A DNA stretch of 64,000 nt from Lentisphaera araneosa HTCC2155 (GTDB lineage Bacteria > Verrucomicrobiota > Lentisphaeria > Lentisphaerales > Lentisphaeraceae). The translations under genes were made by a program, and so were the position numbers. The notes under the pieces are model-generated. The model searched no databases, was not told where the DNA came from, and saw only the letters and a list, made by a program, of their open reading frames with translations. Below, in pieces: positions 21,564 through 29,108 of the stretch (positions are counted from its first letter, which is position 1; each line of letters opens with the position of its first letter). The stretch covers positions 62,001-126,000 of the forward strand of contig NZ_ABCK01000011.1 in assembly GCF_000170755.1 (NCBI RefSeq), in the 5' to 3' direction.

Positions 21564-22070
21564 ATGAGCATTCTTAGTCCGCGATTCTACCGCATACAAT
21601 TCTTTAAAATCCTTCGTTCTGGAGGAACCCCAGAGTATATTGCTCGCTCTGTTTTTTGTGGTGTTTTCTCCGGGCTTACAGTCCCCCTCCTTCAAATCCC
21701 GCTAGCCATACTCGTCGCTTGGATCTTCAAAGCAAATAAAACAATTGCTTCACTTGCCACATTTGTTTCCAACCCACTTTCCTACCCCATATTTTGGTTC
21801 AGCTCCTTGTATATTGGCTCGTTTTTCATCTCAGGTAATGAGAAATTCTTAGCTGACTGCCAGAAACATTTTTTTGAATTGTCATTTTGGATCAACTTAG
21901 ATTGGTGGAAATTGGGAGGAAGCACCATCCTCATGTTCATTACAGGCGGAGCTATTCTAGGATTCATTTTAGGCACACTCGCTTATTTCTGGACAAAGAA
22001 GAAAGTCATTCAAAAACGCGCCAAGAGACAACAAAACGAACGGGCAAAAAACTTAAAAAAAGAGGTATAA
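21564..22070 (+). CDS. DUF2062 membrane protein
   Basis: 168 residues with three or more hydrophobic segments (about 25-55, 60-85, 115-145). The pattern GGTPEYIARSVFCGVFSGL...PLLQIPLAIL...NKTIASLATFVSNPLSYPIFW is characteristic of DUF2062, small inner-membrane proteins of unknown function found alone or fused to glycosyltransferases. The C-terminus is strongly basic (KKKVIQKRAKRQQNERAKNL). The riboflavin synthase gene starts 1 nt after its stop. Confidence 0.85.
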   Translation: MSILSPRFYRIQFFKILRSGGTPEYIARSVFCGVFSGLTVPLLQIPLAILVAWIFKANKTIASLATFVSNPLSYPIFWFSSLYIGSFFISGNEKFLADCQKHFFELSFWINLDWWKLGGSTILMFITGGAILGFILGTLAYFWTKKKVIQKRAKRQQNERAKNLKKEV

Positions 22071-22071
22071 A

Positions 22072-23319
22072 ATGTTTGGTGGAATAATCAAATATAAGGG
22101 TTCAGTTCAATCCATAAGTGGTAATGAAGTTGATGGCATGGTACTCGAGCTCAACACTTCCCTTGTCGAGCAAGTACAAATCGGAGACTCTGTCGGAGTT
22201 GATGGCGTCTGCTTAACTGTCACAGAAATCGTATCAGACACGGTACTAAAATTTGACATCTGGCCGGAATCCCTCCAACGCACGACCTTAGTAGATTTAA
22301 AAATTGACCAAGAAGTTCACGTCGATCTCCCCCTCAAAGCTAATGACTTTATTGGAGGCCACCCCGTTCTTGGCCACGTTGACTACGTCGGCTCAATCCT
22401 TTCCATGAGTCAAGTCGACGAAGCAAGTCAACTCAAAATCTGGATCAGTCTACCCCAAGAATTTTCGAGCTTAATTCCTGCGCGAGGCTCCATCGCAGTC
22501 GATGGTGTCAGCCTTACAATAACCGGACGAGAAAGCGATCGCTTTGCCATCTCACTCATTCCGGAAACACTTCGTTTAACTCACCTTGACGCACTTACAG
22601 AAGGCAGCCAAGTCAATATTGAAGTCGATTTCAGTAGTCGCGCATTACAAGATGAATCTGGCATGATCCATTTAGCGAATGAATCATCAACAATCTCAAA
22701 TAAAGTGGATAAGTTAGAAGCTGCAATTGACACCTACAAAAACGGTGGACTCATTTTGATTCAAGATGGCGCAGATTTTGCTCTTTGCTCATCAGCTGAA
22801 ACAATCACAGATAAAAATCTAACTTTTGCACTCTCCTTGTCTCGCACACCATGCACAGTGGCCGTTACTGAAGGCTTGGCAGAAAAACTTTTTATCCCAG
22901 CCCCCGTCATTAACACTAAAGCTGAAGAACGTCGTTTCTTATTACCGGTGAACCACAAAGAAAACTCTTTACACGATTATTCAACTAAAGCAATGAAAAG
23001 GTCCATTGGACTTTTCTGTTCATCTGAACTTAGCATTGATGATTGGATGACTCCGGGGAACATCAACCCACTACAAATTTTTGGTGCTAACTCATCTTCT
23101 CAACCTGGCTTGCCCGAAGCTGCAGTCGCTCTTTGCTTTAAGAGCAAACTCCCTCATGCAGCCATTTGCCAAAGTCTTATTGACGCCGAAGGCAAAGCAA
23201 TGAATTCCAAACAAGCGGAGGTCATTTCCACTCGCTACCAAATCCCCCTTTATCAAGTGAGTGATCTTATCGCGGAAAATGCCGAACTCTTTGAAGACGA
23301 TTATTTTGGCGATCTCTAA
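22072..23319 (+). CDS. ribE: Riboflavin synthase fused to a degenerate DHBP-synthase-like domain
   Basis: 415 residues. Two lumazine-binding barrels (~1-95 and ~96-195) form riboflavin synthase, which dismutates two 6,7-dimethyl-8-ribityllumazines to riboflavin plus the pyrimidine: MFGGIIKYKGSV, GVDGVCLTV, GHPVLGHVDYVG, AVDGVSLTI, VNIEVDFSSRALQ. Residues ~212-405 align with 3,4-dihydroxy-2-butanone-4-phosphate synthase (RibB) but the catalytic positions are changed. The DDEDREN-EGD loop is replaced around DGADFALCSS (232-241), the GHTEA His is Leu347 (PGLPEA), and the LCEL Glu is Gln367 (AICQSLI). Fold-retaining segments remain (PGNINPL for PGHxFPL). So the first half should be active and the second half a pseudoenzyme (inference). 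A terminator follows. Confidence 0.85.
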   Translation: MFGGIIKYKGSVQSISGNEVDGMVLELNTSLVEQVQIGDSVGVDGVCLTVTEIVSDTVLKFDIWPESLQRTTLVDLKIDQEVHVDLPLKANDFIGGHPVLGHVDYVGSILSMSQVDEASQLKIWISLPQEFSSLIPARGSIAVDGVSLTITGRESDRFAISLIPETLRLTHLDALTEGSQVNIEVDFSSRALQDESGMIHLANESSTISNKVDKLEAAIDTYKNGGLILIQDGADFALCSSAETITDKNLTFALSLSRTPCTVAVTEGLAEKLFIPAPVINTKAEERRFLLPVNHKENSLHDYSTKAMKRSIGLFCSSELSIDDWMTPGNINPLQIFGANSSSQPGLPEAAVALCFKSKLPHAAICQSLIDAEGKAMNSKQAEVISTRYQIPLYQVSDLIAENAELFEDDYFGDL

Positions 23320-28945: not shown

Positions 28946-29019
28946 TACACCCATCAAGATTCGAACTTGAGACCTTCTGGTTCGTAGCCAGACGCTCTAT
29001 CCAGCTGAGCTATGGGTGC
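28946..29019 (-). tRNA. tRNA-Arg(ACG), no encoded CCA
   Basis: 74 nt. Acceptor GCACCCA/TGGGTGT (G1-U72 wobble), D-arm GCTCAGCTGGATAGAGC, anticodon stem TCTGG/CCAGA with loop CTACGAA (anticodon ACG, read as ICG after TadA deamination), T-arm with TTCGAAT. Discriminator A; the next bases are CTT, so CCA must be added enzymatically. Confidence 0.95.
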
Positions 29020-29031
29020 ATTTTGCTTAAG

Positions 29032-29108
29032 TGGTACACCCATCAAGATTCGAACTTGAGACCTTCTGGTTCGTAGCCAGACGCTCTATCCAGCTGAGCT
29101 ATGGGTGC
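29032..29108 (-). tRNA. tRNA-Arg(ACG), second identical copy with encoded CCA
   Basis: The 74-nt body (29035-29108) is identical to the copy at 28946-29019; here the discriminator is followed by CCA (29032-29034). The gap between the two is only 12 nt, so both are surely on one transcript, ending at the terminator at 28907. Confidence 0.95.

Follow-up and report, generated by a model that had tools for sequence, protein, structure and literature searches.

The window is a 64,000-nucleotide stretch of the Lentisphaera araneosa HTCC2155 genome (6.02 Mb in 81 contigs). At positions 22072-23319 of its plus strand, a single ATG-to-stop open reading frame encodes a 415-residue protein that places riboflavin synthase (RibE) at the N terminus and a domain related to DHBP synthase (RibB), here called RibB', at the C terminus. 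The locus contains the following features.

21564-22070, plus strand: gene for a DUF2062 membrane protein (Pfam PF09835, 2e-27), ending one base ahead of the fusion gene
22072-22656, plus strand: RibE part, residues 1-195, two lumazine-binding barrels (Pfam Lum_binding twice, NCBIfam PRK09289 above cut-off)
22657-22704, plus strand: linker, residues 196-211 (comparison with 28 relatives, low-confidence model region)
22705-23274, plus strand: RibB', predicted pseudo-DHBP-synthase domain, residues 212-401 (Pfam DHBP_synthase 4.3e-18, domain model, PDB matches)
22768-22779, plus strand: residues 233-236 (GADF), what remains of acidic loop-1 (canonical RENEGD) after its deletion (alignment)
22888-22944, plus strand: former active-site loop-2 (residues 273-291), in which the order Lentisphaerales has newly fixed L-x-I-P-A-P-x2-N-x4-E-R-R-x-L (column comparison)
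23053-23061, plus strand: PGN (328-330) for PGH, Asn in 6/6 fusions and His (canonical His136) in 27/27 canonical RibBs
23110-23124, plus strand: LPEAA (347-351) for HTEAA; the order has Leu, Val or Cys at His153 and keeps the Glu
23167-23172, plus strand: Cys366-Gln367 for the Cys-Glu of the (I/L)CE motif, Glu174 replaced (alignment)
23275-23316, plus strand: C-terminal tail, residues 402-415, ENAELFEDDYFGDL (comparison among three genera)

A divergent nrdR lies beyond the DUF2062 gene, and this arrangement recurs in two genera (L068-L070). Because the DUF2062 gene is a neighbor in both, it is probably co-transcribed with the fusion gene. Elsewhere in the window, two tandem tRNA genes with identical scores occupy the minus strand at 28946-29019 and 29035-29108.

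The fusion reading frame is unbroken in six genomes from three genera, and it is therefore neither a chance occurrence nor an assembly artefact. Independent genomes show the same fusion with the same neighbors, which rules out a chimeric assembly or contamination. RibE-RibB' is a real, conserved pseudoenzyme fusion that occurs in all six Lentisphaerales genomes examined, which represent one family. No other genome among the 198 of the class or the 388 of the phylum sample has, among the matches listed, a RibE match that extends over the whole RibB' domain. A search for the two best-conserved RibB' motifs across the genomes of 84,980 species, which detects orthologues rather than every possible RibE-RibB fusion, also returns Lentisphaerales only. 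One of the six fusions, from genome G001, is only about 40% identical even though the public record is labelled L. araneosa.

In a tree that sought the source of RibB' among RibBA1, free RibB and RibBA, the six fusions are monophyletic (ultrafast bootstrap 97), with a very long branch leading to them, so the fusion event probably happened once in the order. The rest of the class mostly carries standard RibBA-sized genes of about 400 amino acids. In one class member (L073), ribE, ribBA and ribH are consecutive and the first two lie about 20 bases apart; ribE also lies directly upstream of ribBA in Bacillota and Fusobacteria. Since ribE adjoins a downstream ribBA in such arrangements, fusion followed by loss of RibA would be an easy route: ribE may have fused with an adjacent ribBA, after which the RibA half was lost and RibB catalysis decayed. 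Candidate fusions in plasmid and phage records were set aside: in every full-length match inspected apart from Nonomuraea, a stop codon separates two neighboring genes, ribE and ribBA.

Several lines of evidence identify the C-terminal half as a RibB fold. The Pfam DHBP_synthase profile matches residues 216-401 over profile positions 1-190 of 191 with 66 bits against a cut-off of 26.4 (E = 4.3e-18), while the NCBIfam ribB models score far under their cut-off (42.6 versus 177 bits). A phmmer search of the PDB pairs residues 214-399 with the Streptococcus pneumoniae RibB domain 4ffj (E = 3.7e-10). An AlphaFold model of RibB' alone (pLDDT 79, pTM 0.80) has 46 PDB matches at E ≤ 0.001, every one a RibB or RibB-containing chain, with TM-scores of up to 0.84 and identities of 15-21%; HypF follows as the next fold, with an E-value of about 0.02. 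The full-length model is less confident (pLDDT 66) and matches both riboflavin synthases and RibBs. Together, the profile, PDB and structure matches rule out chance similarity. They also bear out the original prediction that this half aligns with RibB, a resemblance that the structure search of the domain model finds to be real.

We compared RibB' from the six fusions with 27 canonical RibBs of the class. The acidic loop R37-E38-x-E40 (RENEGD) is absent from every fusion, and the home sequence reads IQDGADFALCSS in its place. The PGHxFPL motif has become PGNINPL (residues 328-334), the histidine of GHTEA (His153) is Leu347 in the home fusion, and the TTG loop is likewise replaced. The register at Cys366/Gln367 is ambiguous by one residue, and neither register places a Glu there in any of the six. 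Eight of the 64 columns that are conserved in at least 95% of canonical RibBs are kept in all fusions. The canonical RibBs themselves retain their catalytic residues with the sole exception of a His153 to Gln change in three of them; these are the only canonical RibBs of three Lentisphaerales genomes (L046, L047 and L050), which have GQTEA for GHTEA. The losses first noted in the single home sequence (the acidic loop, PGNINPL, Leu347 and Gln367) were correctly read and hold in all six orthologues. Very likely, then, RibB' lacks DHBP synthase activity.

Other positions of RibB' have become fixed. There are 32 invariant columns among the six fusions, and at 21 of them the residue differs from the canonical one. 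Eleven of these 21 fall within the five active-site loops, whose boundaries were taken from PMC5228156 and which span 47 of 190 columns (hypergeometric P = 0.004). Loop-2 holds eight of them, so that half of its 16 columns (276-291) are both invariant and non-canonical. In RibB, these loops come from the two subunits of the dimer together (PMC5228156). Clustering of the newly fixed residues in the old active-site cleft is suggestive only, since the test uses six sequences, three of them nearly identical, and an alignment of 19% identity.

Among three Lentisphaera species, RibB' retains 83-86% protein identity and RibE 81-83%. Within the genus, dN is 0.11-0.12 for RibB' versus 0.13-0.15 for RibE with synonymous sites near saturation, and pN is about 0.10-0.11 versus a pS of about 0.7. 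As judged by these substitution rates, both halves are under strong purifying selection within the genus. RibB' is as constrained there as RibE and is therefore not a decaying relic, which rules out a degenerating pseudogene segment. Between genera, RibB' falls to 35% identity versus 45-54% for RibE, and this faster drift indicates that its constraint is moderate.

The RibE half has two Lum_binding domains (Pfam, 1.4e-37) and scores above the cut-off of the NCBIfam riboflavin synthase equivalogs over residues 1-194. Residues S40, C47, H102 and D186 are invariant in 6/6 fusions; the conserved residues known in E. coli RibE are Ser41, Cys48, His102 and Asp185. Position 2 is Phe in four fusions and Tyr in two. 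The original prediction of an intact two-barrel synthase in residues 1-195 is borne out for both barrels and for these four residues, but the usual C-terminal trimerisation helix appears to be missing. A helix start of the form [GA][KR][YQ] (GKY, GRY or AKY) follows the last barrel strand in 27 of the 28 other RibEs of the phylum and in none of the fusions. The C-terminal tail (I/V)(T/S)(M/L)xxLxxAGF, found in many RibEs of the phylum (for example SSAITMDTLREAGFL in class members), is also absent from all six. This tail is common to RibEs of the class (L022-L045) and may be a cage-localisation signal.

In the fusions, residues 187-195 and the linker (196-211) take the place of this helix and tail, and residues 190-212 form a low-confidence coil in the full-length model. 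By helix-propensity score, the fusions (0.48) and other RibEs (0.46) cannot be told apart; because this score alone shows no loss, we base the proposed loss of the trimerisation helix on the missing motif and the modelled coil. Riboflavin synthase is a textbook trimer whose active site requires neighboring subunits, and in many bacteria it resides inside a lumazine-synthase cage. The RibH of the genus carries the KAGN motif, which is known from cage-forming lumazine synthases. In characterised RibEs, subunits trimerise through the coiled coil, and the enzyme is held in the cage by its terminal peptide (PMC13376624). The simplest reading is that RibB' has stepped into the organising role that the missing segment once filled. 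The fusion's own tail, ENAELFEDDYFGDL, is 93-100% identical within Lentisphaera and could be a docking peptide. As a cage-localisation peptide it is a weak candidate: its hydrophobic spacing is unlike that of Aquifex, and the other two genera have no tail.

The fusion is the sole RibE of the home genome, which has no other Lum_binding matches, and the sole RibE match in the other five genomes. As the original prediction suggested checking, the home genome also has a separate canonical RibB, which adjoins ribH, and a free canonical RibB occurs in all six genomes. RibE must therefore work, whereas RibB' need not. RibD is present as well, and two RibBA-like genes stand in tandem.

L002 964-2043 (G000:C1 near 377000), minus strand: RibBA1, predicted to be doubly dead, with both halves lacking catalytic motifs and the RibA Zn cysteines absent (orthologues L051-L054)
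L006 1426-2508, minus strand, directly downstream of RibBA1: RibBA2, with an intact-looking RibA (orthologues L060-L063)

The RibA half of RibBA1 is 91-93% identical between species of the genus, as conserved as active RibA. The N-terminal half of RibBA2 is so degenerate that Pfam misses RibB.

We put the probability at roughly one half that RibB' is a non-catalytic assembly and regulatory module of riboflavin synthase. On this view, the RibE part would remain an active riboflavin synthase in which a RibB domain without catalytic activity stands in for the trimerisation helix and tail, the former C-terminal assembly module, while the free-standing RibB would supply the DHBP synthase step. RibB' keeps a fold that dimerises in its relatives. 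If it also dimerises here, then it could hold RibE subunits together, dock RibE onto another pathway protein with a RibB fold, or both. The remodelled cleft might bind a loop of the partner or a pathway ligand and thereby contribute to regulation. The data strengthen the case for a role in assembly or regulation without choosing among scaffold, channelling and sensing.

An alternative, to which we would give about half as much credence, is that RibB' is a ligand-sensing allosteric domain that adjusts RibE activity when its cleft binds FMN, riboflavin, a lumazine or a phosphorylated sugar. The newly invariant polar residues N281, E286, R287, R288, D302, N330 and Q335 lie in or near the former cleft, and the X domain of RibBX provides a regulatory precedent (PMC10012899). 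No FMN riboswitch reaches the gathering threshold near the part of the rib loci that was scanned, so control might act at the protein level. However, confidence in the model is lowest at loop-2, and R287 and R288 could equally be interface residues.

A doubtful possibility is that RibB' serves as a hub for hetero-oligomers of the pseudo-RibB domains (RibE-RibB', RibBA1 and RibBA2), which would join the first and last steps of the pathway in a single complex. Of the home genome's four RibB domains, three lack catalytic residues, and within the genus the RibA halves, the dead one included, show 91-96% conservation. The pseudo-RibB halves of RibBA1 and RibBA2, however, evolve faster (70-77% identity), and genome G001 (about 92% complete; L071, L050) has the fusion, RibB and RibD but no GTP cyclohydrolase II (RibA) domain that we could find. 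It is quite improbable that RibB' has gained a different enzymatic activity: its residue losses would be compatible with one and new invariant charged residues line the cleft, but no known family has the motif, and searches of solved structures give only RibB and then the distant HypF. Accidental fusion is easy where ribE lies directly upstream of ribBA, as it does in many bacteria, but a neutral relic of operon fusion, kept because a premature stop would destabilise RibE, is equally improbable given that three genera keep the domain entire and under constraint and that it carries new invariant residues.

The assembly and regulatory module that we favor for RibB' may belong to a wider pattern. 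We offer, as a tentative extension, that inactivated DHBP-synthase domains on other riboflavin enzymes of the Lentisphaerales constitute a family of non-catalytic connectors or sensors. RibE-RibB' would be the clearest case, where replacement of the trimer helix and cage signal would have changed both assembly and control. The fusion may also offer a natural experiment on the function of the trimer helix and tail and on the origin of pseudoenzymes from operon neighbors. An annotation of this protein as a bifunctional enzyme with DHBP synthase activity is very likely wrong.

Known systems share parts of this architecture. We found no earlier description of a RibE-RibB fusion in the open-access literature, the supplementary tables of one fusion compilation (PMC4921024) aside. 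As the original prediction states, riboflavin synthase is not the usual fusion partner of RibB; we found one separate exception, an in-frame RibE-RibB reading frame of 406 amino acids in Nonomuraea gerenzanensis (L113 501-1718). It has the same domain order, but its RibB motifs are intact (RETEGD, PGHVFP, GHTEA and CEIM; 193.8 bits) and its RibE motifs are partly altered (GVRVTV and GYVD). This fusion is from a different phylum and seemingly independent, and it is possibly a mirror image of the Lentisphaerales case. Free RibEs such as those of Aquifex and Bacillus have the same two catalytic barrels, but they carry the coiled coil and cage-localisation peptide where the Lentisphaerales fusion has RibB'.

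RibBX of Shewanella, Aeromonas and Acinetobacter (crystal structure 6MNZ) is likewise a riboflavin enzyme fused to a dead pathway enzyme: its RibA-like X domain is dead and is reported to regulate the active RibB (PMC10012899). The Lentisphaerales fusion does not have this arrangement of an active RibB followed by a dead RibA-like domain; instead, its RibE is predicted to be active, its RibB is predicted to be dead, and the domain order is different. Arabidopsis RIBA3, for which loss of DHBPS activity has been assayed (PMC3509567), also has a dead DHBP-synthase domain beside an active riboflavin-pathway domain, but its partner is GTP cyclohydrolase II, its order is RibB-RibA, and it derives from inactivation of a standard bifunctional enzyme. 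A dead pathway domain is thus already familiar from RibBX and RIBA3, and what is new in the Lentisphaerales is the partner, the domain order and the apparent replacement of the trimer helix.
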